From Maritalea mediterranea (GTDB lineage Bacteria > Pseudomonadota > Alphaproteobacteria > Rhizobiales > Devosiaceae), in assembly GCF_021568695.1 (NCBI RefSeq), contig NZ_JAKGTI010000001.1, forward strand, positions 1,674,001 to 1,738,000: 64,000 bases of DNA, in the 5' to 3' direction. Below are positions 1,229 to 19,897 of the stretch, piece after piece. Numbering within the stretch: the first letter of the stretch is position 1; the number at the start of each line of letters is the position of its first letter. The position numbers and the translations under genes are program-made. The notes beneath the pieces are model-generated. The model was not told the DNA's origin. It did no database searches and was given only the letters and a program-made list of their open reading frames with translations.

Positions 1229-1425
1229 TAGTTCCTCCCTAGATTTGTGCAATGGAGATCCAGTCGGAAATGTAAAACCGTTTGGACAAAATAAACTCTA
1301 ATATCGGATGGTTACGACGAACCCTCCGATCTTAGTTACTATTGCGCGCATAAATCTGTCTGTCTACCCCCATAAAATTCAAAAACCTTTATTTTATTGA
1401 GGGTTAAGTCAAAACGGCACAGTTT

Positions 1426-1784: not shown

Positions 1785-2477
1785 ATGGATCAGCCGGGCA
1801 AAAATGCGAGCCTTGCCAAAGATACGCCGCAGGCCATTATTGATGGTGTGCTGTCTGTGATGGCCAAGGAAGGTATCGCCAATCTCACCACCAAGCTGGT
1901 GTCCAAACGCGCGGGCGTGTCCACGGCCTCAATCCACTATTTTTTCGATACCAAGGATGCGCTGATCTATCAGGCGTTTCTCTATATGGTGCGCACCTTG
2001 CGTGAAGAGACCATCGCCATTCGCCGCGCGGAAACCGATCCGTTAAAGCGGATTGCGCGCTCGCTGGAAGTGCATTTCAGCCCGTTTCACTTTATGGCCG
2101 ACATTTCGATCATCTGGCCCCAATTCTGGGCCTATTCCGGCGCAGATCAGAGCGTTGCACGTTTGATGCATATTTTCAGCATCCGGATGATTTCCAACAG
2201 CACGGCTGATTTGCGCGCCTTGGGCTATGGCCGTGGCGCCGCACGTATGAAAGCGATTGAACTCAGCGCCCTGCAGCGCGGCTTATGGATTGAGCGTCGG
2301 TTGGCGCTCAGCGTTGAGCAGGATGAATGTTGGCAGATTTTAGAAATGGCGCTTGCCGCCATCGCCAAGGAAACCGGCCGGACGGCCCCCACATTTAAGG
2401 CGCAAGCAGCAGGCCGCCCGGTTTCTTCAACGGATGCCCAGCAAGGGGGAGTGATCCATGACCAATCAAACAAATGA
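1785..2477 (+). CDS. TetR/AcrR family repressor, BetI-like
   Basis: Transcriptional repressor with an N-terminal helix-turn-helix (about residues 15-62; core VSKRAGVSTASIHYFF) and a C-terminal ligand domain resembling the BetI C-terminal family. BetI controls choline-to-betaine oxidation, so a methylated amine is a plausible ligand; that is inference. The start ATG at 1785 follows GGGGGAGG at 7 nt spacing. The last 20 bp overlap the start of the dehydrogenase gene, so the regulator is the first gene of the operon it probably controls through the palindrome at 1721-1738. Length 230 aa. The C-terminal 25 residues look disordered. Confidence 0.85.
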   Translation: MDQPGKNASLAKDTPQAIIDGVLSVMAKEGIANLTTKLVSKRAGVSTASIHYFFDTKDALIYQAFLYMVRTLREETIAIRRAETDPLKRIARSLEVHFSPFHFMADISIIWPQFWAYSGADQSVARLMHIFSIRMISNSTADLRALGYGRGAARMKAIELSALQRGLWIERRLALSVEQDECWQILEMALAAIAKETGRTAPTFKAQAAGRPVSSTDAQQGGVIHDQSNK

Positions 2478-4920: not shown

Positions 4921-6170
4921 TGCGGTATTCTGTGCGCTCACTGTTTGCCAATGCGCTCTCCGGCCACAAAAACTGGCCGGAGCAATGGCCTGATGCGACC
5001 CCGAAAAAATCCTATGACGTGATCATTGTGGGCGCCGGGGGCCACGGGCTTGGCGCGGCTTATTATCTGGCCAGCAAATATGGCGTCACCAATGTGGCGG
5101 TGATCGAAAAGGGGTGGCTCGGCGGCGGCAATACCGGCCGCAACACCACCATTATTCGCTCCAACTATCTCTATGATGAGAGCGCACGGCTTTATGACCA
5201 TGCGGTGGATCTGTGGGATGGGCTGTCGCAGGAACTCAATTATAATGTGATGTTTTCCAAGCGCGGCGTGCTGATGCTGGCGCATAATGTGCATGATGTG
5301 CAAAGCTTTCAGCGTCATATCCACGCCAACCGCTTAAACGGGGTCGACAATCAATGGCTGACCCCGGAACAGTCCAAAGAGTTTTGCCCTCCGCTCGATA
5401 TTTCTTCGCAAAAACGCTATCCCGTGATGGGCGGCGCGCTGCAAAAACGCGCTGGGGTTGCCCGGCACGATTCCGTGGCCTGGGGCTATGCCCGCGCCGC
5501 GGCGCAGTTGGGCGTCGATATCATCCAGAACTGCGCCGTCACCGGCATTAAGCGCGACGCCAATGGCGCCGTGGAAGGGGTGGAGACCGAAAAGGGCTTT
5601 ATCGCCGCCAAAAAAATTGGTGTGTCCGCCGCCGGTAATTCCTCGATCATTATGAATATGGCCGGACTGGATTTCCCGTTGGAAAGCTATCCGCTGCAGG
5701 CGCTGGTGTCAGAACCGGTGAAACCGATCTTCCCCTGCGTGGTGATGTCCAATTCGGTACATGCCTATATCAGCCAATCGGATAAAGGCGAGCTGGTGAT
5801 TGGCGCGGGGACGGACCAATATCTGTCTTATAGCCAGCGCGGCGCGCTGCATATTATTGAGCACACGCTCGCGGCGATTTGCGAGATTTTCCCGATCTTT
5901 AAGCGTATGCGCATGCTTAGAAGCTGGGGCGGCGCGGTGGATGTGACGCCGGATCGCTCCTGCATTCTGGGCAAAACCCCGGTGCAAGGCCTCTATGTCA
6001 ATTGCGGTTGGGGCACGGGTGGCTTTAAAGCCACGCCGGGCGCCGCCGATTTGCTGGCCTACACCATCGCCAAAGACGAACCTCACCCGATCAATGCGCC
6101 GTTTACGCTGGAGCGCTTTACCACTGGTCGCCTGATCGATGAAGCGGCGGCGGCCGCGGTGGCCCACTAG
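4920..6170 (+). CDS. soxB: Sarcosine oxidase beta subunit
   Basis: Catalytic flavin subunit of heterotetrameric sarcosine oxidase (sarcosine + O2 + THF to glycine + methylene-THF + H2O2). The Rossmann FAD motif GAGGHG is at residues 38-43. The conserved segment [14 protein letters not shown] carries His183, the position of the covalent FMN in characterised SoxB proteins. Length 416 aa is normal, including the typical N-terminal extension before the FAD motif. The ATG at 4920 overlaps the stop of the preceding dehydrogenase by one base, so translation is coupled. soxD follows after 12 bp. Confidence 0.95.
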
Positions 6171-6182
6171 GGAGCTTTTGCC

Positions 6183-6485
6183 ATGATGTTGATTGAATGT
6201 CCCGTTTGCAAAGAAAAGCGGCCCGAACTGGAATTTCGTTATGCCGGGGAGGCGCATATTGCCCGCCCCGAAGACCCGGATGCCTTGAGCGATCAGGAAT
6301 GGGCGAAATATCTGTTTATCCGCAGTAACCCGCGCGGCACCCATTTTGAACGCTGGGTGCATGCCCATGGCTGCGCCAAATTTTTCAACGCGGTGCGCGA
6401 CACGGTGACCGACAAATTTGTCATGACCTATAAATGTGGCGAAGCGCGACCTTCGCCAGAACAGATTGCGGAGCGGCAATCATGA
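6183..6485 (+). CDS. soxD: Sarcosine oxidase delta subunit
   Basis: Small zinc-binding subunit of heterotetrameric sarcosine oxidase. The expected ligand set is visible: Cys6 and Cys9 (ECPVC) plus His60 and Cys64 (WVHAHGC). Length 100 aa is typical. GGGAGC precedes the ATG. The stop TGA overlaps the soxA start in an ATGA junction at 6482-6485. Confidence 0.95.
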   Translation: MMLIECPVCKEKRPELEFRYAGEAHIARPEDPDALSDQEWAKYLFIRSNPRGTHFERWVHAHGCAKFFNAVRDTVTDKFVMTYKCGEARPSPEQIAERQS

Positions 6486-9457
6486 GCCAATATAGACGCA
6501 CAAAAAAGGGTCGGGTCGACAGTCGGCAGCAGATCAGTTTTTCCTTTGATGGCAAAACCTATCAGGGCCTGAAGGGCGACACGCTGGCCTCGGCCCTGTT
6601 GGCCAATGGGGTCCATCTGGTCGGGCGTTCGTTCAAATATCACCGCCCGCGCGGCATCATGGCCGCCGGATCGGATGAGGCCAATGCCCTTGTGGCCTTT
6701 GATCGCGGGGAAGCGCGGGTCACCCCCAATATGCGGGCCACCACCTTGGAGCTTTATGACGGGTTCAAAGCCCAGAGCCAGAACAATTGGCCCTCGCTCA
6801 ATTTTGATGTCACCGCCATCAATGATCGGCTGTCGGCCTTCTTTCCCGCGGGCTTTTACAACAAAACCTTTATGTGGCCGAAATCCTTCTGGGACAAAGT
6901 CTATGAACCCGCGATCCGTGCCACCGCCGGGCTCGGCCCGGCCCCTAAGGCAGCGGACCCGGACAAGTATGATGCGAACTACACCCATTGCGAAACGCTG
7001 ATTGTGGGGGCAGGCCCTGCCGGTATCGCCGCCGCACGCGCTGCCGCCAAAAAGGGTGGGCGCGTCATATTGGTGGATGAACAGGGCGAATTGGGCGGCT
7101 CACTGCTCTCTGCGCCGGACCAAAAGATTGATGGTCAACCTGCATGGGACTGGCTGGCTGAAAGTCTTGCGGAACTGGACGCGGCGGAAAATGTCACCCT
7201 GATGCCCCGCACCACGGCGATCGGCTATTATCACGACAATTTTTTGGGGCTGGCCGAAAGGTTGACCGATCATTTGCCCGAGGACGCGGCGGAAGGGCCG
7301 CGCGAACGGTTGCATCGTGTATGGGCGCAAGAAGTCATCCTCGCCACGGGCGCCATTGAACGGCCGCTGGTTTTTGCGGGCAATGACCGCCCCGGCGTGA
7401 TGTTGGCCTCTGCGGCGCAAACCTTCCTTAATCGCTATGGCGTGGCGGTCGGCGAAAAAATCGCCGTGGTCACCGGCCATGATAGCGCTTATAAGGCGGC
7501 GTTCGATCTGTCTGATGCTGACATTGAAATCGCTGTGATCGTAGATTGCCGGGCACAGGTGGATCAAAAGCTGATCGCCGAAGCGGAAAAGCGGGGTATC
7601 AGCCTTCGCACCGGCCACACTGTGACCGCCACCAAGGGCCGCCATCGGGTTAAATCGATCACGATCAACAAGGTTAATGGTGATCAGGTGGACCCCGCGG
7701 GTGAAACCCTTGAGTGCGATGCACTGATCATGTCCGGCGGGTGGACGCCAAGCGTGCACCTTTGGTCTCATTCCAAAGGTTCGCTACAGTGGCGCGACGA
7801 CATCGCAGCCTATGTGCCCGACAAGCCCAATGAAAATGCCATATGCGTTGGCGCCTGCAATGGCGACTTTGGGATTGGCGCGGCCATGGCTGCAGGCGCG
7901 AAAGCAGCCGGCGGAGACCACACCTTTGATGTAGACGATACATGGCCGTGGACAGGTGCGGGCACGCTGGAAATTTTGCCCACCCACCGCGACGAGTCGC
8001 GCATCAAGGCGTTTGTGGATTTTCAGAATGATGTGACCGCCAAGGATATCCGCCTGGCGGTGCGCGAAGGCTTTAAATCCATTGAGCATATTAAGCGCTA
8101 CACCACCACTGGCATGGCGACCGATCAGGGCAAAACCTCAAACCTTAATGGGTTGCAGATTGCCGCTAGCGCCTTGGGGCGGCCAGTGCCGCAAGTTGGC
8201 CTGACCACCTTCCGGCCGCCTTATACCCCCACCACCTATGGGGCGCTGGCGGGCAATAATGGCGGTGCGGCCTTTGATGTGGTGCGCAAAACCTCGATTG
8301 ATGGTTGGGCGGAAGAACATGGCGCGGTGTTTGAACCGGTCGGCCTGTGGCGGCGCGCCCGCTATTTTCCGCGCGATGGCGAAGATATGCACCAGGCCGT
8401 GGCACGCGAAGGCAAAGCGACGCGCGACTCTTTGGGCATTTTTGATGCCTCGACCCTTGGGAAGATCGAAGTGGTCGGCCCCGATGCCGCCGAATTTTTG
8501 AATCGCATGTACACCAATCCCTGGACCAAGCTGGGCGTGGGCCGTTGCCGCTATGGCTTGATGCTGGGCGAAGATGGGTACATTATGGATGATGGGGTGA
8601 TCGGACGGTTGGCCGATGACCGTTTTCATGTGACCACCACCACTGGCGGCGCACCACGGGTGCTGGCGCATATGGAGGATTATCTGCAAACCGAATGGCC
8701 GGACCTTGATGTCTGGCTCACCTCCATCACAGAGCAATGGGCGGTGATCGCCCTTAATGGCCCCAATGCCCGCAAGCTGATTGAACCATTTGTTGAAGGC
8801 GTAGATCTGTCGTCGGATGCCTTCCCGCATATGGCGGTACGCGAATGCAAGGTCTGCGGCATTGACGCCCGCCTGTTCCGTGTCAGCTTTTCTGGCGAGT
8901 TGGGCTTTGAGATTAATGTGCCGGCCCATTATGGCCGCGCCTTGTGGGAAACGCTTTATGCGGCGGGCCAGCAATATGACATCACACCTTATGGCACCGA
9001 AGTCATGCATGTGTTGCGGGCGGAAAAGGGTTTTATTATTGTCGGGCAGGATACGGACGGCACCGTCACGCCTTATGACGCGGGCATGAGCTGGGCGATT
9101 GGCAAAAAGAAAAAGGATTTTGTCGGCAAAAGATCGCTGGCGCGGCCCGATATTGTCGCCGAGGGCCGCAAGCAATTGGTCGGGCTAATGACGAAGAACC
9201 CCAAAACCGTATTGGAAGAGGGCGCGCAGATCGTGATGACCCCGAACCAGTCTATCCCCATGGAAATGGTGGGCCATGTCACCTCGTCCTATTGGAGCGA
9301 GACGCTGGGGCACTCTATTGCGCTCGCCCTTGTGGCGGACGGTCATGATCTTAAGGGCCAAACCATCTATGTGCCCATGCCTGATGAAATGATCGAAGCG
9401 GAGATCGTTGACACGATCTTTTATGACAAACAGGGGGAGCAGCTCAATGTTTTCTGA
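6482..9457 (+). CDS. soxA: Sarcosine oxidase alpha subunit
   Basis: Largest subunit (991 aa) of heterotetrameric sarcosine oxidase. It has an N-terminal ferredoxin-like domain (FSFDGKTYQGLKGDTLASAL, then SFKYHRPRG), a central NAD/FAD Rossmann region (LIVGAGPAGIAAARAA, near residue 175) and a C-terminal GcvT-type folate domain from about residue 600 that makes methylene-THF from the formaldehyde channelled from the beta subunit. The start is the ATG at 6482, which overlaps the soxD stop; an upstream in-frame start at 6434 lies inside soxD and lacks a ribosome binding site. The last 11 bp overlap soxG. Confidence 0.95.
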   Translation: MSQYRRTKKGRVDSRQQISFSFDGKTYQGLKGDTLASALLANGVHLVGRSFKYHRPRGIMAAGSDEANALVAFDRGEARVTPNMRATTLELYDGFKAQSQNNWPSLNFDVTAINDRLSAFFPAGFYNKTFMWPKSFWDKVYEPAIRATAGLGPAPKAADPDKYDANYTHCETLIVGAGPAGIAAARAAAKKGGRVILVDEQGELGGSLLSAPDQKIDGQPAWDWLAESLAELDAAENVTLMPRTTAIGYYHDNFLGLAERLTDHLPEDAAEGPRERLHRVWAQEVILATGAIERPLVFAGNDRPGVMLASAAQTFLNRYGVAVGEKIAVVTGHDSAYKAAFDLSDADIEIAVIVDCRAQVDQKLIAEAEKRGISLRTGHTVTATKGRHRVKSITINKVNGDQVDPAGETLECDALIMSGGWTPSVHLWSHSKGSLQWRDDIAAYVPDKPNENAICVGACNGDFGIGAAMAAGAKAAGGDHTFDVDDTWPWTGAGTLEILPTHRDESRIKAFVDFQNDVTAKDIRLAVREGFKSIEHIKRYTTTGMATDQGKTSNLNGLQIAASALGRPVPQVGLTTFRPPYTPTTYGALAGNNGGAAFDVVRKTSIDGWAEEHGAVFEPVGLWRRARYFPRDGEDMHQAVAREGKATRDSLGIFDASTLGKIEVVGPDAAEFLNRMYTNPWTKLGVGRCRYGLMLGEDGYIMDDGVIGRLADDRFHVTTTTGGAPRVLAHMEDYLQTEWPDLDVWLTSITEQWAVIALNGPNARKLIEPFVEGVDLSSDAFPHMAVRECKVCGIDARLFRVSFSGELGFEINVPAHYGRALWETLYAAGQQYDITPYGTEVMHVLRAEKGFIIVGQDTDGTVTPYDAGMSWAIGKKKKDFVGKRSLARPDIVAEGRKQLVGLMTKNPKTVLEEGAQIVMTPNQSIPMEMVGHVTSSYWSETLGHSIALALVADGHDLKGQTIYVPMPDEMIEAEIVDTIFYDKQGEQLNVF

Positions 9458-10022
9458 TGCGGATAGCGGCAGCTTAAAGTTGGATCAGGGGGTACACATT
9501 GGTGATTGTCTGCGTCTGCCTGACCAGCGCTTTGACCTCAATCTGGTGGATGAACGTTCCCGCTTCTGCCTGAGAGTGCGCGAAACACATGTTTCGGCCT
9601 TTGCCAAAGCGTCTGGTCTGGCGCTGCCAACACAAGTGGGCACGACCCGTCAGGACGAAAACGCACTGATCATGTGCCTGTCGCCAGATGAATGGCTGAT
9701 CATCGCGGCATCGGAAAGCAAGGATCTGATCAAACGCAAGACGGATCAATTTAAAAGTGCGCCCTTCAGCTTAGTAGACGTGTCCCATCGCAATGTTGCG
9801 TTCACGCTGCGAGGCGAGGGCGCGGCAGCGATGGTTAATGTCGGGTGTCCGTTGGATCTCGATTTGAAGGCGTTCCCGGTGGGCAAATGCACCCGCACGA
9901 TTTTTGAGCGGGCAGAGATTATCCTATATCGACCGGCCGAGACAGAATTTCACATCGAAGTGTGGCGCTCTTTCGCGCCATATGTTTTGTCGGTTTTGTC
10001 CAATGGCGCACAAGCGCAATAG
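9447..10022 (+). CDS. soxG: Sarcosine oxidase gamma subunit
   Basis: Fourth subunit of sarcosine oxidase, 191 aa, with the conserved SoxG features DEWLIIA and VDVSHRNVAFTLRGEGA. It resembles a reduced GcvT fold. The start ATG at 9447 follows GGGGGAG at about 6 nt and overlaps soxA by 11 bp. The in-frame start at 9408 would extend further into soxA without a ribosome binding site. It closes the TetR-dmgdh-soxBDAG operon. The convergent AraC-type regulator gene ends 12 bp downstream. Confidence 0.9.
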   Translation: MFSDADSGSLKLDQGVHIGDCLRLPDQRFDLNLVDERSRFCLRVRETHVSAFAKASGLALPTQVGTTRQDENALIMCLSPDEWLIIAASESKDLIKRKTDQFKSAPFSLVDVSHRNVAFTLRGEGAAAMVNVGCPLDLDLKAFPVGKCTRTIFERAEIILYRPAETEFHIEVWRSFAPYVLSVLSNGAQAQ

Positions 10023-10034
10023 GGATATATCGCT

Positions 10035-11039
10035 TCAGGCCGTATTGCTGTTGGCGTAGCTTGGCAACATTGACAGCGAGGCTTCGCGCTCGGCAGACGG
10101 CGACTGTCCGAACAATTCCTTGTAGGCTTTGGCAAAGTGTGACGCCGAGGTGAAGCCGGTGGCCACCGCCACCTGAATGATCGGCATGGTGGTTTGCGCC
10201 AACAGTAATTTGGCGCGATGCAGCCGCACTTCCAGATAATAGCGGGTCGGGGTCTTGCTGAGATGCACCCGAAACAGCCGCTCAAGTTGGCGGGCGGACA
10301 CTTGGGTGGACGCGGCAATATCATGGATCGACACTGGCGTTTCAATATTGGCTTCCATATGGGCAATGGCGGCCAGCAATTTGGGTTGGTTCAGCCCTGT
10401 CCGGTGTTTGATCGGCATGCGCTGGGTGTCGTGCGGCACGCGCACAAAATTATGCAAGAGCTGTTCAGCCACATTAACCGCGAGGTCGCGGCCATGGTCC
10501 TGCGCGATGCCATAAATCATCATATCAAGCGGCGCGGTGCCGCCAGAGCAGGTATAGCGATTGCGGTCAATCTCAAACAGGGTCGCGGTGATGTCGAGAT
10601 GGGGGAAATTTTCGGCGAAGCCCTCCACATCTTCCCAATGGATGGTGCAACGGTGTCCGTCAAGCAATCCCGCATGCGCCAACAAATGACTGCCGGTGCA
10701 CACGCTGCCCATGGTCGCTCCGGTGCGGGCATAGTCGCGCAACAGGGATAACAAGTGGGGCGTGCTATAGGTGCCAGCCTTCAAGCCTGCGCACACCACA
10801 AGCGTATCAAGAGCCGGTTTTTCTGCTAGCGCCGCGTCGGCGGCCACGCCCACCCCGTTGCTGGCATAAACATTGTCCCCATCCTGACTAAGGATTTTCC
10901 ATTGATAAAGCGTCTTACCGCTCAACCGATTTGCCGCCCGCAAGGGCTCGATGGAAGAGGTGAACGCCATCATCGAAAATTCCGGCACGAGTAAAAACCC
11001 GATGATTTTGGGTGCCTTTTGGGCGTCTTTACTGAACAT
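10035..11039 (-). CDS. GlxA/GbdR-type transcriptional regulator (DJ-1/PfpI-like domain + AraC HTH)
   Basis: Regulator with an N-terminal class-I glutamine-amidotransferase-like ligand domain (about residues 10-190; LDTLVVCAGLKAGTY and SVCTGSHLLAHAG) and a C-terminal AraC double helix-turn-helix (about 215-320; VSARQLERLFRVHLSKTPTRYYL). GbdR, the glycine betaine/dimethylglycine-sensing activator of Pseudomonas, has this architecture, and the setting between sarcosine oxidase and a methyltransferase operon points to the same ligands (inference). The start ATG at 11039 follows GGGGGAC at 5 nt; an upstream start at 11084 lacks one. It is divergent from the fhs-mttB operon, which it probably activates. 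Confidence 0.85.
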   Translation of the reverse strand: MFSKDAQKAPKIIGFLLVPEFSMMAFTSSIEPLRAANRLSGKTLYQWKILSQDGDNVYASNGVGVAADAALAEKPALDTLVVCAGLKAGTYSTPHLLSLLRDYARTGATMGSVCTGSHLLAHAGLLDGHRCTIHWEDVEGFAENFPHLDITATLFEIDRNRYTCSGGTAPLDMMIYGIAQDHGRDLAVNVAEQLLHNFVRVPHDTQRMPIKHRTGLNQPKLLAAIAHMEANIETPVSIHDIAASTQVSARQLERLFRVHLSKTPTRYYLEVRLHRAKLLLAQTTMPIIQVAVATGFTSASHFAKAYKELFGQSPSAEREASLSMLPSYANSNTA

Positions 11040-11082
11040 ATGTCCCCCCATTTGCCGCCATACTGCGCCAAATACAGGGTGC

Positions 11083-11111
11083 ATTATTTACTGCCGAAAA
11101 GATGACGCCAA
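11083..11111 (-). promoter_or_regulatory. Candidate promoter of the GlxA/GbdR-type regulator gene
   Basis: On the minus strand, -35 TTGGCG (11111-11106) and -10 AATAAT (11088-11083) with a 17-bp spacer, about 40 bp before the chosen start codon. Confidence 0.45.
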
Positions 11112-11276: not shown

Positions 11277-12992
11277 ATGGCTTTGGACACAGTAATGGTC
11301 GAAGAGTTGCCACCCCCGGGATCTCCGGATATTGAGATTGCGCGCGCCGCTTCTATGCGCCCCATTATTGATTTGGCACAGGATCGGTTGGACATTCCCG
11401 CCGAGGCGCTTGTGCCCTATGGTCACCATAAAGCAAAACTCTCCCTCGATTATATTGCGTCCAAGGCTGATGCGCCAAAAGGCAAACTGGTTTTGGTGAC
11501 GGCGGTGACCCCGACGCCGGCGGGCGAAGGCAAAACCACAACAAGTGTTGGCCTCAATGACGGATTAAACCGCATCGGGTTAAGCGCCATGGTGTGCCTT
11601 CGCGAGCCCTCCCTAGGCCCATGCTTTGGCATGAAAGGTGGTGCCGCCGGCGGCGGACGAGCGCAAGTGCTCCCCATGGAAGATATCAATCTTCACTTTA
11701 ATGGTGACTTCCATGCCATCACCGCGGCCCACAGCCTGTTGGCCGCCATTTTGGATAATCATCTGCAATGGGGCAATGAGCAGAATATTGACCCGCGCCG
11801 CATTGTTTGGCGCCGGGTGGTCGATATGAACGACCGGGCGCTGCGCAATATCAATGTCGGGCTTGGCGGTGTCGCCCATGGGGTGCCGCGCGAGACCGGC
11901 TTTGACATTACCGTCGCCTCCGAGATTATGGCGATCCTCTGCCTTTCAACCGATATTGCCGATCTGCAGCGCCGGTTGGGCAATATTATTGTCGCCCGAC
12001 GGCATGATAAAACCGCGGTCACTGCCCGCGACCTTGAGGCAGACGGGGCCATGGCGGTGTTGCTGAAAGACGCCCTTCAGCCCAATCTGGTGCAGAGCAT
12101 TGAGCACAATCCCGCCTTTATCCATGGCGGGCCCTTTGCCAATATCGCTCATGGCTGCAACTCAGTGATGGCCACCAAGGCGGCGCTGTCGCTGTGTGAT
12201 GTGGTGGTGACCGAAGCGGGCTTTGGCGCCGATCTGGGCGCTGAAAAGTTCCTCGACATTAAATGCCGCCAATCCGGCTTGCGGCCCGACGCCGTGGTGC
12301 TTGTGGCCACCATCCGCGCCTTGAAAATGCAGGGCGGTGTCGCCAAAGCGGAACTGGGCACTTCAGATCCCGCTGCCGTTGAGCGCGGTGCGATGAATCT
12401 GCGGCGACATATTGAAAATCTGCAAAAATTCGGCATTTCTCCGATTGTGGCGCTGAATCATTTTGTTCTGGACAGCGATGAGGAAATCGCCGTCGTCATG
12501 CAGGTTTGTAATGAACTTGGGGCGCGTTGCACGATTGCCAAACATTGGGCCGAAGGCGGCGAGGGGGCCGAAGATCTGGCCAGCGCTGTCAAAGAACAGC
12601 TTGAGCAGGGGTCACCCGAAATCAAGCTGCTTTATGAAGATGACGCGCCGCTCACCGAAAAAGTCGAGACGGTGGCCCGCGAGATCTATCGCGCCGCCGA
12701 TGTAAGTTTCAGCGCGGCTGCCCTGCGCAGCATCAAGGAATTCACTAAGCTTGGTTACGGTCATCTGCCGGTTTGCATTGCCAAAACCCAATATAGTTTT
12801 TCCACCGATCCCGCAGCTGTTGGCGCGCCTGAAGGTCACACGCTGGAAGTGCGCGAGGCGCGGCTCTCTGCCGGCGCCGGGTTCGTGGTGATGGTGTGCG
12901 GCGATATTATGACCATGCCCGGGCTGCCCAAGCGCCCGGCAGCACTAGATATCGGCCTGAATGATGATGGTGACATTGTTGGTCTGGCTTAA
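11277..12992 (+). CDS. fhs: Formate--tetrahydrofolate ligase
   Basis: Interconverts formate + ATP + THF and 10-formyl-THF + ADP + Pi; 571 aa. The ATP-binding P-loop [14 protein letters not shown] sits near residues 78-90, followed by the family signature [19 protein letters not shown]. The start ATG at 11277 is 7 nt after GGAGGAGGA; an earlier ATG at 11253 precedes the Shine-Dalgarno and is rejected. It is first gene of a tight operon ending with mttB. Next to methylene-THF-producing oxidases and a methyl-THF branch, Fhs could run toward formate with ATP gain, the reverse of its acetogenic role; direction is inference. No folD is visible in the window. Confidence 0.95.
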
Positions 12993-13019
12993 AACTCACT
13001 ATGTGGAGGAGTACCGAAA

Positions 13020-13706
13020 ATGAGCCTGGATGATGAAGTAATCCTCCGTGATTTGAACGATGATGATCTTGTCGAGCAAATGAAAGACGATCTTTATGAT
13101 GGTCTGGCCGACGAGGTGAAGGAAGGCACTCAAATTCTGCTTGAGCGGGGTTGGGATGCCAATCAGGTGCTCAGCGATGCACTGGTGGAAGGCATGCGGA
13201 TTGTCGGCGTGGATTTTCGCGATGGCATCTTGTTTGTGCCCGAGGTGCTGCAATGTGCTCATGCCATGAAGGGCGGTATGGCCTTGCTAAGGCCCATTCT
13301 GGCGTCCAGCGAAAACACCTCCAAGATCGGCAAATATGTCATTGGGACCGTAAAGGGTGACATTCACGACATTGGTAAAAACCTTGTGGGGATGATGCTG
13401 GAAGGTGCCGGATTCGAAGTGATTGATATCGGGATCAATAATCCGGTCGAGAACTATCTTGAGGCCATCGATAAGCATGAACCCAATGTGCTGGGCATGT
13501 CCGCACTCCTGACCACCACCATGCCCTATATGGGCGTGGTGATTGAAGAGTTCGACAAGCGCGGTATTCTGAAAGAATTACCGGTCATGGTGGGCGGCGC
13601 GCCGCTCAACCAGGAATTTGCCGATGCCATTAACGCCACCTCATATGGCCGTGACGCAGCGCGCAGTGCCGAGCTGGCCAAAGCGCTTGTGGGGGTTAAT
13701 CGCTGA
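13020..13706 (+). CDS. Corrinoid (B12)-binding methyl-carrier protein, MttC/MtbC type
   Basis: Carries the methyl group on cobalt between the substrate methyltransferase and the THF-dependent methyltransferase. It has an N-terminal helical cap (about residues 25-95) and a Rossmann cobalamin domain (about 105-228) with the lower-ligand motif DIHDIG: Asp114, His116, Gly119. The first 36 residues are strikingly acidic (14 Asp/Glu, 3 Lys/Arg). RBS GGAGGAG sits before the ATG. It lies 27 bp after fhs and 1 bp before the DUF1638 gene. Such 210-230 aa proteins are stand-alone homologues of the cobalamin module of MetH and normally pair with an MttB/MtbB/MtaB enzyme, here the gene at 17228. Confidence 0.93.
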   Translation: MSLDDEVILRDLNDDDLVEQMKDDLYDGLADEVKEGTQILLERGWDANQVLSDALVEGMRIVGVDFRDGILFVPEVLQCAHAMKGGMALLRPILASSENTSKIGKYVIGTVKGDIHDIGKNLVGMMLEGAGFEVIDIGINNPVENYLEAIDKHEPNVLGMSALLTTTMPYMGVVIEEFDKRGILKELPVMVGGAPLNQEFADAINATSYGRDAARSAELAKALVGVNR

Positions 13707-13707
13707 C

Positions 13708-14367
13708 ATGGTGGTGGCACGTGGACATAAGCAAGACGGTCCGCGTCTTTTGGTGCTCGCCTGCGGCGCGCTGGCGAAGGAAATTGTCGCCCTGCGCAAG
13801 CAACTGGGCGAGCGGGCGGCCAATATGGAGCTGCAATGTCTTCCAGCAGATTTTCACAATCGCCCGCACAAAATTGCGCCGGCGATTGATCTGATCCTCA
13901 CCGAACGCCGGGTGGATTTTGACCATGTGCTGGTGGGTTATGGCGAATGCGGCACCGGCGGCGAACTGGATAAAGTGCTGGCAAAGCACCACGCCGAACG
14001 CTTGCCCTTTGCCCATTGCTACGAATTTTTCGCCGGATCACCACTTTTCAATCAGATCACCGAGGAAGAAATTGGCAGTTTTTACCTCACCGATTATCTG
14101 GTTCGTCATTTTGACCGGCTGGTGATGGGAGGCTTGGGCCTCGATCGACATCCCGAACTGCGCGACCTCTATTTCGCCAATTATCGGCGCGTGGTTTATT
14201 TGGCGCAAACCCGAGATATCGGGTTGGAGGCGCAAGCCGCCACCGCCGCGGACAAGCTCGGATTGGCATTTGACTATCGCTATGTCGGCTATGGCGAATT
14301 GAAGTCTGCCATTGCGGCGGCCGCAGCCGAAATTGACCATGAGGAGCGTTACTATGTACGCAATTAG
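13708..14367 (+). CDS. DUF1638 family protein of the corrinoid methyltransferase operon
   Basis: Unknown-function protein of 219 aa. The segments LVLACGALAKEI, LQCLPADFHNRPHKIA, GYGECGTGGEL and AHCYEFFAG are typical of DUF1638; the Cys and His residues in these segments could form a metal or cofactor site. DUF1638 genes are known to accompany corrinoid methyltransferase clusters. The start ATG at 13708 is one base after the corrinoid gene stop, so translation is coupled; the longer frame from 13618 lies within that gene. The end overlaps the MetV-like gene by 14 bp. A role in corrinoid handling or reactivation is possible but unproven. Confidence 0.75.
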   Translation: MVVARGHKQDGPRLLVLACGALAKEIVALRKQLGERAANMELQCLPADFHNRPHKIAPAIDLILTERRVDFDHVLVGYGECGTGGELDKVLAKHHAERLPFAHCYEFFAGSPLFNQITEEEIGSFYLTDYLVRHFDRLVMGGLGLDRHPELRDLYFANYRRVVYLAQTRDIGLEAQAATAADKLGLAFDYRYVGYGELKSAIAAAAAEIDHEERYYVRN

Positions 14368-14794
14368 ACGCTGGTCAAGCCGACACGCCAGAGGCCTGGA
14401 ACGGCTTTATAAGGCGACAAGACCCGGCATTCTGTCGGGCTTGCGCTTGGTCACTCGCCTGTTTGGCAAGCGGCTCGACCGCCCGATCACCGCCACCGAG
14501 CGCTTGCTGAAAGGGGCGTTGTTTGATTGCCAAATGTGCGGTGATTGTGTGCTGTCCAAAACCGGCATGACCTGCCCGATGAACTGTCCAAAAGGCATTC
14601 GCAACGGCCCGTGTGGTGGCGTGCGCGCCAATGGCATGTGCGAGGTGAAGCCGGATATGCGCTGTGTTTGGGTGGATGCCTGGAACGGGGCGGCAAAAAT
14701 GGAAGATGGCGACGCCATCAAAGACATAGAATTTGCGGTGGATCATAGCCGCGTTGGACAATCCTCCTGGTTGAGGCTCGCACGCGATGAGTGA
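14354..14794 (+). CDS. MetV-like Cys-rich protein (MTHFR C-terminal zinc/Fe-S domain)
   Basis: 146-aa protein of the family annotated as methylenetetrahydrofolate reductase C-terminal domain. Eight cysteines sit in a compact block: Cys59, 62, 65, 74, 78, 87, 96 and 104 (CQMCGDC, CPMNC, GPCGG), enough for two metal or Fe-S sites. In acetogens MetV of this family forms a complex with MetF and mediates electron transfer. Here the gene overlaps a metF-like gene by 8 bp. The amino end is basic and lacks a signal peptide. Start: ATG at 14354 after GAGGAGCG; the longer frame from 14312 has no ribosome binding site. It probably allows the adjacent MetF to use a carrier other than NADH. Confidence 0.8.
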   Translation: MYAIRRWSSRHARGLERLYKATRPGILSGLRLVTRLFGKRLDRPITATERLLKGALFDCQMCGDCVLSKTGMTCPMNCPKGIRNGPCGGVRANGMCEVKPDMRCVWVDAWNGAAKMEDGDAIKDIEFAVDHSRVGQSSWLRLARDE

Positions 14795-15860
14795 TGATCT
14801 CGATTTTGTAGAAGAATTTGGTGTTAACCCCGGTGACCCGCTGGTCCAGCGGCCGGGTCACGTTTCTCATGGTCGCTTTGAACGCGTCTTGCGGGCCGGC
14901 CACTTTGCCGTCACCACTGAGATTGCCCCGCCGGACTCTGTGGACCCGGACGAGGTGCTGGCCCGCGCCAAGCTGTTTGATGGCTATGTGGATGCTATCA
15001 ATGCCACGGACGGTTCGGGTGCCAATTGTCACATGTCCAGCCTCGGGGTCTGCGCCATTCTCACGCGGGCGGGCTATTCGCCGATCATCCAGTTTTCATG
15101 CCGCGACCGCAACCGCATTGCCATGCAGGGCGATTTGCTGGGCGCCGCTGCGCTCGGGGTATGTTCGGTGCTGTGCCTCACTGGCGATGATGTGGGCGCG
15201 GGGGACCACCCGGAGGCCAAACCGGTTTTTGATCTGGACAGCATATCCCTTCTGCAAACCACCAAGATATTGCGCGACGAGTCCCGTTTTTTGAGCGGGC
15301 GACCGCTGGACGCTGCACCACGCCTTTTCGTGGGCGCTTCAATCAACCCGTTTGTGCCGCCGCTTGAAAACCGGGTGGATCAATTGGCCAAGAAAATCCG
15401 TGCTGGCGCCGAATTTATACAATCGCAATATTGCTTCGACATCGACCAACTTAAGCGCTTTATGGCCCGCGCTTGCGATATGGGATTGCACGAGCAAGCC
15501 TATATCCTGGTGGGCGTCGGCGTGCTGGGTTCGGCCAAAACCGCCAAATGGCTGCGCTCCAATGTGCCCGGTGTGCATATCCCCGATGCCATCATCAATC
15601 GCCTTGAGGGCGCCCGCAATCAAAAGGCGGAGGGCCGTCGCATCGCCGTGGAGCTGATGCAGCAAATCAAGGAAACACCTGGCGTTGCCGGGGCGCATTT
15701 GATGGCCTACCGCCATGAAGAATGGGTGGGGGAAATCGTGAAACAGTCAGGCGTATTGGGCGATCGCAAGCCTTGGGCGCCGGAGCCATTGGACTCAACG
15801 ATCGGTGTCGTCACGCCGCTTGAAGAGGTCGTCGACAGCATAACAGGCACGGATAGTTAG
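14787..15860 (+). CDS. metF: Methylenetetrahydrofolate reductase (MetF family)
   Basis: TIM-barrel flavoenzyme interconverting 5-methyl-THF and 5,10-methylene-THF; 357 aa, longer than the roughly 300 aa of E. coli MetF. Family features include AVTTEIAPPDSVDPDEVL at the start of the barrel (catalytic Glu of the TTEIAPP motif), SCRDRN, LCLTGDD and a QSQYCFDI strand. The ATG at 14787 overlaps the MetV-like gene (ATGAGTGA junction), so the two are co-translated as in MetVF systems. In this operon the enzyme would logically oxidise methyl-THF produced from demethylation; the direction is inference. The next gene starts 9 bp downstream. Confidence 0.88.
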   Translation: MSDDLDFVEEFGVNPGDPLVQRPGHVSHGRFERVLRAGHFAVTTEIAPPDSVDPDEVLARAKLFDGYVDAINATDGSGANCHMSSLGVCAILTRAGYSPIIQFSCRDRNRIAMQGDLLGAAALGVCSVLCLTGDDVGAGDHPEAKPVFDLDSISLLQTTKILRDESRFLSGRPLDAAPRLFVGASINPFVPPLENRVDQLAKKIRAGAEFIQSQYCFDIDQLKRFMARACDMGLHEQAYILVGVGVLGSAKTAKWLRSNVPGVHIPDAIINRLEGARNQKAEGRRIAVELMQQIKETPGVAGAHLMAYRHEEWVGEIVKQSGVLGDRKPWAPEPLDSTIGVVTPLEEVVDSITGTDS

Positions 15861-15869
15861 GACCCGCTT

Positions 15870-16775
15870 ATGACGCAAACCATTGTCAGTTCGGCATCAA
15901 AAGAAGTTCGCATCGGGTTCGACCAACCCTTTGTGATGATTGGTGAGCGGATCAACCCCACCGGCCGAAAGCTGCTCGCCGCGGAAATGAAGGCAGGCGA
16001 TTATTCGCGCGTGGAAAAAGACGCGTTGGCACAAGTGGCTGCCGGGGCGCAAATGCTTGACGTGAATGCGGGCATTCCCTTGGCGGACGAACCCAAAATC
16101 CTCGCCGAGACCATTCAATTGGTGCAATCGATCACCGATGTGCCGCTTTCTATCGATTCTTCGGTGATTGAAGCACTTGAAGCGGGGCTTTCGGTCTATC
16201 AGGGCCGAGCGCTGGTCAATTCCACCACCGCAGAAGAAGAAGTGATGGAGCGCATTTTGCCGCTGGTCAAAAAATATGATGCGGCCGTGGTGGCCATTTC
16301 AAATGACGACACCGGCATTTCTGAAGATCCGGATGTGCGATTTGAGATCGCCAAGCGCATTGTTGAGCGTGCCGCCGACCATGGGATCAAGGCGGCAGAT
16401 GTGGTGGTTGATCCGCTGGTGATGCCCATCGGTGCCATCAATCGCGCGGGCAAGGATGTGTTTTACTTGGTGCGGCGGTTGCGCGAGGAGCTTAAGGTCA
16501 ACACCACCTGTGGGGCCTCCAATATCGGCTTTGGCTTGCCCAACCGCCACGCCATCAATAATGCCTTTCTGCCCATGGTGGCTGCCGCGGGCATGACCTC
16601 GGCCATCTTAAACCCGCTGCATGAGGGGCTGGTGCCTGCCATCAAGGCGGCAGATGTGCTGAATGGGGTCGATCCCCACTGTGGCAATTGGATCAGAACG
16701 TTCCGCGAGCCCCCGGCAGATAATGACGGGGAAGCGCCAAGAGGAGGACGTCGCCGTGGTCGCCGTCGTGCCTGA
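15870..16775 (+). CDS. Methyltetrahydrofolate:corrinoid methyltransferase (pterin-binding, DHPS-like fold)
   Basis: Transfers the methyl group between methyl-corrinoid and THF. The protein (301 aa) has the pterin-binding family start FVMIGERINPTGRK, LDVNAGIP, PLSIDSS and the later TTCGASNIGFGLPNR, all typical of AcsE/MtvA/MetH folate domains. The last 12 or so residues form an Arg-rich tail (GRRRGRRR) absent from most family members. The GFA gene begins inside this tail, and its Shine-Dalgarno GAGGAGG is encoded by the Arg codons. It sits between metF and the GFA gene in the fhs-mttB operon and closes the route methylamine substrate to corrinoid to THF. Confidence 0.9.
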   Translation: MTQTIVSSASKEVRIGFDQPFVMIGERINPTGRKLLAAEMKAGDYSRVEKDALAQVAAGAQMLDVNAGIPLADEPKILAETIQLVQSITDVPLSIDSSVIEALEAGLSVYQGRALVNSTTAEEEVMERILPLVKKYDAAVVAISNDDTGISEDPDVRFEIAKRIVERAADHGIKAADVVVDPLVMPIGAINRAGKDVFYLVRRLREELKVNTTCGASNIGFGLPNRHAINNAFLPMVAAAGMTSAILNPLHEGLVPAIKAADVLNGVDPHCGNWIRTFREPPADNDGEAPRGGRRRGRRRA

Positions 16776-17235
16776 AATGCATAAGGGCGAGTGCCTGTGC
16801 GGGGCCGTGCAATTTGAAGCGCGCGGCCTGGCCGACATCTGGTTCTGCCATTGTCGGCAATGCCGCTATTTGAGCGGCCATTATGTGGCCGCCGCCGCGG
16901 TGGCGCGCGACAAGGTGAAGATTGAGGGTCCGCTGAAATGGGCACCTTTCACCCCGACGGCTGAATATGCCTTCTGTATCTCCTGCGGCACGCCATTGTT
17001 CTGGCGGCAGACGACCGGGCATACGCTTTCAGTTTTTGCCGGCAGCCTCGCCCACACCAAGGGGATTGAGGTGAAGGGGCACATCTTTGTCGCCGAAAAG
17101 GGTGATTATTACCAGATCACCGATGATCTACCGCAATTTCCCGGCCAGCCCCACGCGGGCGGGGTCAGAGAATCTTTTGAGGCCCAGGGGCCAAACCAGT
17201 CAACGCGATCGAATAAGGAGCAGTCAAATGCCTAG
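16756..17235 (+). CDS. GFA family protein (glutathione-dependent formaldehyde-activating / CENP-V fold)
   Basis: Small zinc protein with the GFA cysteine pattern: GECLCGAV, CHCRQC and CISCGTPLFWR. Family members bind glutathione and are proposed to speed S-hydroxymethylglutathione formation, although this activity is disputed for many. In an operon that moves one-carbon units, a formaldehyde-related role is reasonable (inference). Start: GTG at 16756 is 8 nt after GAGGAGG; alternatives are GTG at 16768 or ATG at 16777, just after the preceding stop. With 16756 it overlaps the previous gene by 20 bp, and it overlaps mttB by 8 bp. About 159 aa. Confidence 0.8.
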   Translation: MVAVVPEMHKGECLCGAVQFEARGLADIWFCHCRQCRYLSGHYVAAAAVARDKVKIEGPLKWAPFTPTAEYAFCISCGTPLFWRQTTGHTLSVFAGSLAHTKGIEVKGHIFVAEKGDYYQITDDLPQFPGQPHAGGVRESFEAQGPNQSTRSNKEQSNA

Positions 17236-18760
17236 ACCAGGACGAGAGGGCGGTCGCCGTGGCCGCACGGCGGGGAGTGGACCTGAACGTTCGGCGCAGC
17301 CCTTTATCACCCGCAACATACCGCCCTATGAAATTCTCGGCGAAGCGGATCTGAAGATCATTGAAGACAATGCCGATACGATTCTTGAAGAGATCGGCAT
17401 TGATATCAAGGACGATCCAGACTCGATTGCCACCTTTGTGGCCGCTGGGGCCAGTGCTGACGGTGCGCGCGTGCGTTTTCCGCGCGGCATGTGTCGGGAA
17501 ATCATCCAGAGCAGCGCCCCCAACATCTTCACCCAACATGCGCGCAACCCGGCGCGCAGTGTCGTGATCGGCGGCAATCATCTGGTGTTGGTGCCCGCCT
17601 ATGGCTCGCCCTTTGTCTATAGCCGCGAAGGCGGCCGCCGCTACGCGACGATTGAGGATTTCCGCAATTTTGTGAAGTTGGCCTATATGAGCGATGGGCT
17701 GCACCATTCGGGGGGCACCATTTGCGAGCCGGTAGACCTGCCGGTCAACAAGCGCCATTTTGATATGCTCTATAGCCATATTAAATATTCCGACAAAGCC
17801 TTTATGGGCTCGGTCACCGCGCCGGAACGGGCGCAGGATTCCGTTGATATGGCCAAGATTGTGTTCGGCCAAGATTTTGTTGAAGACAATTGTGTGCTGG
17901 TCAATCTGATCAACGCCAACTCGCCAATGACCTTCGATTCGACCATGTTGGGCGCGCTCAAGGTTTACGCCCGGCACAATCAGGCCACAATGGTCAGCCC
18001 CTTTGTGGTGGCCGGGGCCATGTCACCGGTGACGACAGCAGCGGTGGCGGCGCAAAGTCTTGCGGAAGGTTTGTGCGGCATGGCGTTGGCGCAATTGACC
18101 CGGCCCGGTGCCCCGGTGATCTATGGCAATTTCGTCAGTTCCATGTCCATGCAGTCAGGTGCACCCACATTTGGCTCGCCCGAAGCTTCCATGGTGCTCA
18201 ATATCGGGGCGGCGCTGGCCCGTCGCCTCGGGGTGCCGTTCCGCAGCGCTGGCGGCTTCACCGCCTCAAAAGTGCCGGACGCACAAGCGGCCTATGAAGC
18301 GGCCAACACCCTGCAACAGGGCCTGATGGCCGGAGTGAATTTCATGCTGCACACTGCAGGCTGGCTCGAAGGGGGACTGGCCATGGGCTACGAGAAATTC
18401 GTGATGGATGCGGATCAGGCCAATATGCTGGCGGTTTATGCCAATGGTGTCGACATGTCCGAAAACGGACAAGCGCTTGATGCCTTGCGCGAAGTGGGCC
18501 CGGGCCAGCATTTCCTCGGATGCGCCCATACGCAGGCGAACTTCAAATCTGCCTTTTATCGCTCCAACATTGCCGATAACAACAGTTACGAACAATGGAT
18601 GGAGGATGGTGCCTTGACCGCCGAAATGCGGGCGGAAAAAATCTACAAGCAGATGCTGGCCGACTATCAGGCGCCAGAGCTTGACCCGGATATCGACCAT
18701 CAGCTGGTCAGCTTTATTCATGACCGAAAGATGAGTTTTGAAGATTCCAATGTGGCTTGA
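17228..18760 (+). CDS. mttB: MttB-superfamily corrinoid methyltransferase without pyrrolysine
   Basis: Substrate-specific methyltransferase that moves a methyl from a methylated amine to the Co(I) corrinoid protein. Length 510 aa. The MttB barrel runs from about residue 35 (PYEILGEADLKIIEDNAD) through DGLHHSGGTICEP and QSGAPTFGSPE. The frame is open to the TGA stop with no internal TAG, so it lacks the amber-encoded pyrrolysine of true trimethylamine methyltransferases. It groups with the non-Pyl branch that includes glycine betaine (MtgB), proline betaine and carnitine-type enzymes. The first 18 residues are Arg/Gly-rich. Start: ATG at 17228 after AAGGAG. Substrate not proven; glycine betaine fits the dimethylglycine and sarcosine enzymes nearby. 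Confidence 0.9.
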   Translation: MPRPGREGGRRGRTAGSGPERSAQPFITRNIPPYEILGEADLKIIEDNADTILEEIGIDIKDDPDSIATFVAAGASADGARVRFPRGMCREIIQSSAPNIFTQHARNPARSVVIGGNHLVLVPAYGSPFVYSREGGRRYATIEDFRNFVKLAYMSDGLHHSGGTICEPVDLPVNKRHFDMLYSHIKYSDKAFMGSVTAPERAQDSVDMAKIVFGQDFVEDNCVLVNLINANSPMTFDSTMLGALKVYARHNQATMVSPFVVAGAMSPVTTAAVAAQSLAEGLCGMALAQLTRPGAPVIYGNFVSSMSMQSGAPTFGSPEASMVLNIGAALARRLGVPFRSAGGFTASKVPDAQAAYEAANTLQQGLMAGVNFMLHTAGWLEGGLAMGYEKFVMDADQANMLAVYANGVDMSENGQALDALREVGPGQHFLGCAHTQANFKSAFYRSNIADNNSYEQWMEDGALTAEMRAEKIYKQMLADYQAPELDPDIDHQLVSFIHDRKMSFEDSNVA

Positions 18761-18787: not shown

Positions 18788-18880
18788 CAAAAGCCATGTC
18801 GACATTCCTAGCGCGTTTCGTTACTACTAGATGATTGTTTTGCGGCCCCTATGGCGGCCAGTCTGACCGGGGGGATCGAC

Positions 18881-19897
18881 ATGAAACACATTGTCTTAGC
18901 TGGCGCGCTTACACTGCTGGCAACGCCTGCACTCGCAGGATTGGAAATCTGCAACAACGCCGCTGAGCGGCTGAGCTTGGCGATTGGCTATTCCAGTGAC
19001 GGGGGCTGGGTTTCTGAAGGTTGGTGGAATATCGACCCTGGGGCCTGTAAAACCACAATAAGTGGCGATCTGAAGAACAGATATTACTATTATCGCGCCA
19101 ATATGTCTGGCGACCCATTTGCCACTGGCGATTATAGCTTTTGCACCACCAAAGAAGCTTTTACCATCAAGGGCGACGAAAACTGCGTGGATCGCGGCTA
19201 TGATGCCATGGGCTTTCGTAAGCTTGATACCGGCGAAACGGCTACTCATTTCACCTTGACCCTGAATGACAATCGCAAAAGCCAGAAGGACGCGGCCGCC
19301 AAAACAGTTACGCCACCACCGGTGTCCAGCACCGGGCCGGGCACCTATGGCGAGCCTTATTCGGACAACGTCATTCTGCAAGGCTGTGTCAGCGACGGGG
19401 GTCGCCAGTGTAATTTCCACGCCCGCGGCACCAGCTTTTTTGTTTATGATGATGGGCGCACGCCGCAATTTGTGTTCACGACAATGGAAGCGCTTGACCC
19501 TGGCACCCCCCTTTCTGTGGAAGGCGATCTTGAAGCTGTTTATGACCGTACGGCAGATGTGGTGCTGCAGGACGTCAGCGTCCGCCCCTGGAGTGAATAT
19601 GATGGGTTGCTGAACCAGTTGCAGGGGCACTGGTATTCAGAAGACGACCCCAATTCCCAATTCACCATATTGGGGGCGGAGCGCGAAAACACCTATGATG
19701 GCAGTTTTATGGGCGTTGAATATTTGTGGGTGTCCGAAAGATGCGACCAATTTGAAGGTGGCGGACCCTATCTTTATGCCCGCGAAGAAGAGACGGGCGA
19801 AAGCTATTGCTACCAAATTGCCTATGTCGATCAGCTTCAGTTGGAGCTGATGTATTTGCCGCGCGGCAATATCCTGCGTTATCGCAAGTTGGACTAG
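18881..19897 (+). CDS. Periplasmic DUF1036 domain protein
   Basis: 338-aa secreted protein of unknown function. The signal peptide (KHIVLAGALTLLATPALA) is cleaved before GLEICNN. DUF1036 follows at about residues 20-130, rich in Cys, Trp and Tyr (GGWVSEGWWNIDPGAC, YYYYRANMSG, YSFCTTKEAF). The C-terminal half (YDDGRTPQFVFTTM, LQGHWYSEDDPNSQF) is not recognised; the latter resembles a small lipocalin-like quality-of-fit module. Start: ATG at 18881 after GGGGGATC; an earlier start at 18851 lacks a ribosome binding site. The stop shares four bases (CTAG) with the stop of convergent glpD. No link to the methyl operon beyond proximity. Confidence 0.75.
   Translation: MKHIVLAGALTLLATPALAGLEICNNAAERLSLAIGYSSDGGWVSEGWWNIDPGACKTTISGDLKNRYYYYRANMSGDPFATGDYSFCTTKEAFTIKGDENCVDRGYDAMGFRKLDTGETATHFTLTLNDNRKSQKDAAAKTVTPPPVSSTGPGTYGEPYSDNVILQGCVSDGGRQCNFHARGTSFFVYDDGRTPQFVFTTMEALDPGTPLSVEGDLEAVYDRTADVVLQDVSVRPWSEYDGLLNQLQGHWYSEDDPNSQFTILGAERENTYDGSFMGVEYLWVSERCDQFEGGGPYLYAREEETGESYCYQIAYVDQLQLELMYLPRGNILRYRKLD

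Follow-up and report, generated by a model that had tools for sequence, protein, structure and literature searches.

The subject here is a stretch of 64,000 nucleotides from Maritalea mediterranea (contig NZ_JAKGTI010000001.1, positions 1,674,001 to 1,738,000; 'the window' below, with coordinates counted from its first letter). Eight of its genes are best read, at a probability of roughly 0.8, as a dedicated unit of the aerobic MtgBCD kind for transferring a methyl group from glycine betaine to tetrahydrofolate (THF) and oxidizing it. The chemistry is largely known, and what differs here is that the unit forms a second set, predicted to be decoupled from a methionine-making set elsewhere in the same genome. 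A further proposal, to which we give somewhat better than even odds, concerns how several separate enzymes may find one corrinoid carrier. The eight genes are the following.

11277-12992, plus strand: fhs2, a second copy of formate--THF ligase, from profile matches (fhs1 is near the native locus considered below)
13020-13706, plus strand: mtgC2, corrinoid protein that binds B12 and has an acidic N-terminus, from profile matches, a DxHxxG motif and its place in the tree
13708-14367, plus strand: DUF1638 protein, a presumed helper in corrinoid reactivation, from a Pfam match
14354-14794, plus strand: metV (DUF5981), Cys-rich partner of MetF, from PF12225
14787-15860, plus strand: metF2, methylene-THF reductase family, from profile matches, its predicted direction being towards methylene-THF
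15870-16775, plus strand: mtgD2, methyl-THF:corrinoid methyltransferase with an Arg/Gly-rich C-terminal tail, from NF005719 over cut-off
16777-17235, plus strand: GFA-family protein, from PF04828
17228-18760, plus strand: mttB (mtgB-type), predicted non-pyrrolysine quaternary-amine:corrinoid methyltransferase with an Arg-rich N-terminal tail (residues 1-20), from PF06253 and a structure model

An earlier reading, made from the sequence alone, had described eight tightly packed genes of these families, and all eight are there, in one direction across 11277-18760, seven with Pfam matches over cut-off and mttB over that of PF06253. The gaps are, in order, +27, +1, -14, -8, +9, +1 and -8 bp, so that of the range then given, -20 to +27, the upper end is reproduced and the lower is not, -14 being the lowest with the starts used. 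The mttB start at 17228 is backed by Maritalea myrionectae, where a stop codon lies in frame shortly before it. For MtgC2 the best NCBIfam match is an MtgC model, below its cut-off (201 versus 370 bits); it classes as a stand-alone MtgC-type corrinoid protein, and MtgD2 as a pterin-binding MtgD. The order mtgC-DUF1638-metV-metF2-mtgD-mttB is found again in genomes of Novosphingobium, Henriciella and Hellea and in Arenicella-like ones, and the same gene set with mttB divergent is on an annotated plasmid of Paracoccus methylovorus; since the gene order recurs in other genomes, the operon is not a chance assembly. Scans for promoters (9 sites versus 4.6 expected, standard deviation 2.3) and terminators (10 versus 9.1) were not used. 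As an observation in its own right, the MetV-like Cys-rich protein (14354-14794) adjoins MetF2 in a presumably aerobic host.

That MttB is of the non-pyrrolysine kind, as the sequence-only reading had it, is borne out by a frame without an internal stop and by an ordinary residue aligning with the pyrrolysine of Methanosarcina MttB. A pyrrolysine MttB, that is a trimethylamine methyltransferase, was accordingly rejected: there is no in-frame amber codon read as pyrrolysine, and the pyrrolysine-specific model TIGR02369 gives 251 bits versus a cut-off of 525. With MtgB of Desulfitobacterium hafniense the window protein shares 45.6% identity (213 of 467 aligned residues). An AlphaFold2 model of it (predicted local distance difference test, pLDDT, 85.6; predicted template modelling score 0.86) was compared by template modelling (TM) score with solved structures: the Sinorhizobium meliloti homologue 4yyc gives 61% identity and TM 0.89, the glycine betaine methyltransferase MtgB (9yce/2qne) 45% and TM 0.87-0.88, and pyrrolysine MttB 22-23% and TM 0.85-0.86. 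Among the 80 loci kept, the closest named MttB relative is that of M. myrionectae DSM 19524 (86%).

In the scheme proposed, MttB would demethylate glycine betaine and load the methyl onto the MtgC2 corrinoid, and MtgD2 would hand it from there to THF, after which MetF2 with MetV would oxidize methyl-THF to methylene-THF, and FolD, encoded elsewhere, together with Fhs2 would take it to formate with a yield of ATP. The dimethylglycine remaining would pass to the adjacent dehydrogenase and then to the sarcosine oxidase SoxBDAG, while RamA, encoded once and at the native locus, would reactivate both corrinoid proteins. Gene content supports a corrinoid-dependent demethylation of quaternary amines that feeds THF, the oxidation route and the onward passage of dimethylglycine, each of which had been put forward before. 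The operon had also been called complete, which it is not quite: RamA is missing from it and is encoded some 120 kb off, at the methionine locus, and a FolD-like gene is there too. For the description 'apparently aerobic' the adjoining dimethylglycine and sarcosine enzymes, of flavin adenine dinucleotide (FAD)/THF type, give only indirect support, and the genus Maritalea we take to be aerobic.

How much of this is already in the literature? In D. hafniense, a strict anaerobe and in this unlike the Maritalea host, Ticak and coworkers reportedly described in 2014 how a non-pyrrolysine MttB homologue transfers a methyl from betaine to THF by way of a corrinoid protein, as is proposed here; this is the MtgABC system, whose MtgA reportedly shares no sequence identity with any known structure (PMC7154762, in part). 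The notion of such parts as known from anaerobes alone is outdated, given Ruegeria mtgC and mtgD mutants in 2025 (PMC12478193) and work on Fhs in 2015 (PMC4744692). In the main text of the former, Mausz et al. 2025 report from proteomics and mutants that Ruegeria pomeroyi DSS-3 needs MtgC and MtgD for betaine use and for methionine, and that on N-osmolytes two PF06253 proteins, MetF2, RamA and DUF1638 are more abundant; in marine Proteobacteria mtgBCD often neighbours betaine genes and may even share an operon with them, genes for later demethylation steps included, MtgBCD betaine demethylation is reported as a major oceanic route, and the non-SAR11 homologues of betaine-homocysteine methyltransferase (BHMT) are argued to be MtgE (PMC12478193). 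Lidbury et al. 2015 found that a Ruegeria fhs null mutant fails on betaine as sole carbon source and still uses betaine nitrogen; they proposed that Fhs works in the direction of formate and ATP, left unsettled whether methyl oxidation had stopped, and without any mention of a corrinoid sent one methyl to homocysteine (PMC4744692). Price et al. 2018 showed that Phaeobacter inhibens has a three-part methionine synthase, helped by a RamA-like and a DUF1638 protein; for DUF1638 they record a phenotype and assign no specific role (PMC5764234). The core idea of the sequence-only reading was thus right in outline and not new, because the chemistry is already largely in print. Ruegeria is alike in having PF06253 proteins, MtgC, MtgD, MetF2, DUF1638 and RamA in an aerobe; it differs in that one MtgC/MtgD does both jobs, whereas Maritalea has a second set in a catabolic operon beside a native locus (PMC12478193, as far as its main text goes).

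That native locus is the following.

L031:5247-10865, about 120 kb from the operon: mtgE-mtgC1-DUF1638-mtgD1-ramA, with fhs1 close by

It is this locus, not the window operon, that the split methionine synthase of Phaeobacter matches (PMC5764234, in part), and with it falls the notion of the operon as the genome's only corrinoid kit. The sequence-only reading had neither a further MtgC/MtgD set nor the tie to methionine synthesis in view. The host genome (G000, a 98.75% complete assembly) encodes two MtgC proteins, 62% identical, and M. myrionectae likewise has two. The FolD-like gene near the native locus was named by reading of the sequence. RamA is single in the host genome, in the native methionine locus, and there is none in the window operon. 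Equally single is the PF02574 protein, the MtgE of the native locus, which matches PRK07534 'BHMT' over cut-off and yet sits in a split methionine synthase locus. MetH was not found in the host, the sole PF02574 protein being this MtgE and no corrinoid domain occurring in a long open reading frame (ORF); MetH as a host enzyme was rejected on these grounds. The Rieske alpha subunit, PF00848, is absent from all six Maritalea genomes in a search that gives eight in the relative G028, and a coexisting Rieske (GbcAB) route was likewise rejected. With no PF00848 and the sole PF02574 protein being MtgE, the operon is the only recognizable betaine-demethylating route. CobN, the sole B12-pathway gene searched for, is present.

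The proteins that have to meet MtgC share a feature that is absent from most of their neighbours. Arginine-rich stretches stand at the C-terminus of MtgD, MtgE and RamA and at the N-terminus of MttB, while MtgC itself starts with an acidic segment. Taking as a tail at least four Arg or Lys within eight residues of the terminal tail (five in eight in a stricter version), and excluding identical sequences, open-ended ORFs and low-coverage matches, the Pseudomonadota loci examined gave 51/51 for MtgD, 17/18 for MtgE, 54/56 for RamA and 100/107 for MttB. From the 82 MtgD rows, 14 open-ended, 5 more of low coverage and 12 in MetH loci had been left out, and from the 127 for MttB 7 of low coverage, 2 with open starts and also three M. 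myrionectae rows whose match ran into an overlapping frame; the M. myrionectae MttB tail is visible in the sequence despite this exclusion. For comparison, out of 774 other ORFs of at least 200 amino acids (window plus L031-L120), 46 pass at the C-terminus and 104 at the N-terminus. A net charge of -5 or lower over 24 residues is found at the start of 58 of 59 MtgC proteins versus 20 of those 774. The single MtgE that falls short (L152) comes from G034 and is a fragment of MetH type; the two RamA misses are a masked sequence and one with its Arg run further in, and several of the seven MttB misses still start R-rich. Control proteins gave 0/9 for MetH pterin ORFs and 0/3 for MetH homocysteine ORFs, 0/36 for MetV, 0/13 for Fhs, 0/10 for FolD-like proteins, 0/55 for DUF1638, 0/8 for SoxA, 0/6 for SoxG, 0/12 for SoxB, 0/20 for dimethylglycine dehydrogenase, 1/20 for GFA, 2/37 for MetF2 and 6/32 for GbdR (1/32 at five in eight). 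The MtgD tails are 22.6 +/- 4.4 residues long and contain 6.8 +/- 0.8 Arg, and the 50 proteins that have the anchor motif show 47 different tails; by eye, Arg-rich starts are also seen in annotated MttB genes on plasmids of Paracoccus methylovorus, Cereibacter sphaeroides, Phaeobacter inhibens and an Azoarcus sp.

Of two mundane explanations at the nucleotide level, one was rejected and the other looks unlikely. Arg count does not behave as an effect of G+C content (GC), its correlation with locus GC being -0.29 for MtgD, +0.34 for MtgE and -0.15 for RamA. That the mtgD2 tail results from Shine-Dalgarno coding looks unlikely, the AGAGGAGG stretch lying, by reading, some 30 bases before the next ATG. 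A scan of G000 for RRRxRRR encoded by CGN codons only says little because it gives 5 sites versus 8 for the control; mtgD2 is alone in having its site at the end of an ORF of more than 150 amino acids.

We somewhat favour the idea, resting on comparison of sequences, that MttB, MtgD, MtgE and RamA find MtgC via disordered Arg-rich tails acting on its acidic N-terminus, an arrangement that would replace the covalent tether of MetH. There would be an electrostatic docking code, with MttB-family clients using the N-terminus and MtgD, MtgE and RamA the C-terminus. The MttB tail is predicted to be disordered (pLDDT 33 over model residues 1-20); in the MtgC model the stretch below pLDDT 50 is confined to residues 1-5, and a helix at 14-26 bears part of the acidic motif. 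Solved homologues from anaerobes have little or no room for a tail: in MtgB 2 residues precede the aligned part in 9yce and 19, not seen, in 2qne (the latter presumably a tag), 1-2 residues follow it in the methyltransferase MeTr (2yci and 2e7f) and 9 in the reductive activator RACo (3zyy), and 4 precede it in the corrinoid proteins 1y80 and 7xcn, a comparison limited by the fact that solved chains can be constructs. In the sequence of S. meliloti 4yyc the N-terminal stretch does contain Arg, and the coordinates count 479 of 525 residues.

The tails could instead bind nucleic acid or membranes, aid solubility or be relics of common descent, an account that we place below docking and still regard as a serious competitor. 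In its favour, the host genome also encodes an RNase E-like protein (so named by reading) with Arg-rich stretches in its interior, and GbdR, which is not expected to meet MtgC, passes the looser measure in the 6 of 32 cases given above. At L186:5046-7452 (G061) a basic-N-tailed MttB-like protein (21% identical) adjoins an MtgC-like protein (47%) without the acidic N-terminal extension, the two forming an unassigned corrinoid pair. At L185:10423-11130 a corrinoid protein without the MtgC motif has an acidic N-terminus (net -10) beside a RamA and a neighbouring gene product, a methyltransferase only by guess, both without an Arg tail. This account is harder to reconcile with tails on four partners from four protein families that are rare or absent on operon neighbours, and with D. 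hafniense MtgB, which in 9yce leaves no room for a tail although it is closer to the window MttB than are 16 family members (23-44%), 13 of which are tailed; the window MttB bears the Arg-rich N-terminal tail of the proteobacterial branch. That Arg content does not track GC also speaks against it. Apart from this argument stand two observations in relatives that have other corrinoid systems: at L040 the product of the gene after a fused corrinoid protein, a system we take to be CmuA/CmuB-like, is without an Arg tail, and at L185:3215-5452 (G034) a protein with the basic C-terminus RRKKRRPKK immediately precedes a corrinoid protein whose N-terminus is acidic.

Several further points, together with the two pairings at L185 and L186, weigh against docking. 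The 7 of 107 MttB that fall below the measure count against it; DUF1638 is without a tail despite its methionine phenotype in Phaeobacter; the Paracoccus plasmid has, by eye, a weaker MtgD tail and a weaker MtgC charge. MtgC charge is correlated with that of MtgD at -0.51 (43 non-redundant loci) and with that of RamA at -0.34 (41), figures uncorrected for kinship, and the tail counts are a measure of conservation and not of independent origins because most are from related proteins in loci fetched via MttB or MtgC similarity. Neither tails nor an acidic N-terminus are mentioned in the main text of PMC12478193 or PMC5764234, and a search of open-access titles and abstract starts, with supplements, preprints and subscription papers outside it, gave, among the papers listed, none on such tails, which together with the acidic MtgC end look new to print as far as that search reaches.

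Why should an organism keep two such sets? We infer that the second decouples betaine catabolism from methionine synthesis, and having a second MtgC/MtgD pair makes it less likely that the same pair serves both purposes. This operon or its mttB is found in 23 genomes, of which 17 have MetH and 6 lack it (completeness not given), so that in the 17 the operon is not needed for methionine. Since MetH covers methionine there and the resident split enzyme does so in Maritalea, decoupling is what one would naturally predict. Among these 23, M. myrionectae is alone in having two MtgC proteins that are both intact and stand-alone. PF06253 occurs in 10 of 41 genomes (G000 plus 40 relatives), and within the host's family (f1, 25 genomes) it is confined to G000, the congeneric G001 and a fragment at a contig edge in G008. 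The MtgC tree, built on 59 rows, places the window copy on a long, well-supported separate branch, in a clade of 15 rows (100/100) that takes in sphingomonads and Hyphomonadaceae (among them Novosphingobium, Henriciella and Hellea), Arenicella-like genomes and G008; the native copy groups with f1 genomes in a clade of 10 rows (100/99). The second MtgC thus has a separate origin in the tree, most probably because the catabolic operon was acquired laterally beside a resident methionine set. In operons of relatives ramA lies between GFA or mtgD and mttB in 16 of 16 loci listed, and it was not found in the Maritalea loci L033 and L041; GFA is next to mtgD or at a contig edge in 13 of 17 operon-type loci with that stretch visible.

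The sets might not be decoupled at all, with MtgC2 and MtgD2 feeding methionine, or MtgC1 taking the MttB methyl, and the duplicate only raising dosage. This seems to us rather unlikely, albeit with some weight behind it: one MtgC and MtgD do both jobs in Ruegeria (PMC12478193, main text), the acidic motif is present in both MtgC copies, and one RamA must serve both. Set against it are the operon's having no mtgE and its own divergent regulator, the MetH of those 17 of 23 genomes, and the long separate branch of MtgC2. Certain considerations nonetheless tell against a clean separation and its supposed history. The two MtgC being 62% identical and both retaining the acidic motif, cross-talk between the sets is quite possible, and the single RamA ties them together anyway; an old duplication with many losses is an alternative to lateral acquisition, and absences in the host may be gaps in the assembly.

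As to the substrate, glycine betaine is inferred from neighbours and relatives, and the neighbours are as follows.

1785-2477, plus strand: BetI-like TetR regulator (TIGR03384 at 102 bits, below its cut-off of 201; TetR_N)
2458-4920, plus strand: dimethylglycine dehydrogenase-like FAD/THF enzyme (domains DAO-FAO_M-GCV_T-GCV_T_C)
4920-6170, plus strand: soxB, sarcosine oxidase beta (TIGR01373, 699 bits, over cut-off)
6186-6485, ATG at 6183 or 6186, plus strand: soxD, putative sarcosine oxidase delta, small and Cys-containing (from the reading frame and its position between soxB and soxA)
6482-9457, ATG at 6482, plus strand: soxA, sarcosine oxidase alpha (TIGR01372, 1506 bits, over cut-off)
9447-10022, ATG at 9447, plus strand: soxG, sarcosine oxidase gamma (PF04268 over cut-off, TIGR01375 just under)
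10035-11084, minus strand: GbdR-like AraC/DJ-1 regulator of choline/betaine catabolism, transcribed away from the operon (NF052371, 391 bits, cut-off 480)

Among nine genomes, G000 and G001 included, a close GbdR copy is found in one of the eight relatives searched, M. myrionectae (86%). For the dimethylglycine dehydrogenase-like enzyme no NCBIfam model is over cut-off among the matches listed. Against glycine betaine it has to be said that the GbdR and BetI matches are below the NCBIfam cut-offs and that the NCBIfam search of MttB gave no glycine-betaine-specific model. The same machinery could act on proline betaine, carnitine, choline or another quaternary amine, which we consider quite unlikely. 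The MttB superfamily is functionally diverse (PMC12478193, main text), relative G032 has ten PF06253 matches, and distant family members (40-42%) are found on plasmids beside short-chain dehydrogenase, FAD and aldehyde dehydrogenase genes. Against such breadth stand the position of mttB beside dimethylglycine dehydrogenase, SoxBDAG and the GbdR-like regulator, its being the sole PF06253 protein found in the host genome, and the identity of the nearest solved structures, S. meliloti 4yyc and MtgB. In G032 most of the readable N-termini bear a basic tail, and one carrier might there serve many demethylases. Further out, a TRAP transporter substrate-binding protein, DctP, lies upstream of the betaine cluster (206-1252, minus strand) and may have to do with substrate uptake, and directly downstream of mttB is a DUF1036 protein (18851-19897), followed on the minus strand by an FAD oxidoreductase of glycerol-3-phosphate type.

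That the operon is anabolic in direction, or an alternative methionine synthase, is highly improbable: MtgC/MtgD-type pairs do act in methionine synthesis (PMC5764234 and PMC12478193, in part), but this operon has mttB, metV/metF2 and fhs and no homocysteine methyltransferase, and a complete native methionine set is elsewhere in the genome.

The literature search gave no account of the way in which several enzymes make common use of a single B12 carrier in an aerobe, and a duplicated catabolic set provides a natural case for the separation of betaine breakdown from methionine synthesis. If the tails do dock, they would be a sequence mark for clients of the MtgC carrier, unannotated demethylases among them, and partner choice would be directly accessible via truncation. 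With a shared code, if true, a single RamA and MttB paralogues without limit of number could connect to one MtgC hub or to several, and the laterally acquired hub of Maritalea could borrow the native RamA.

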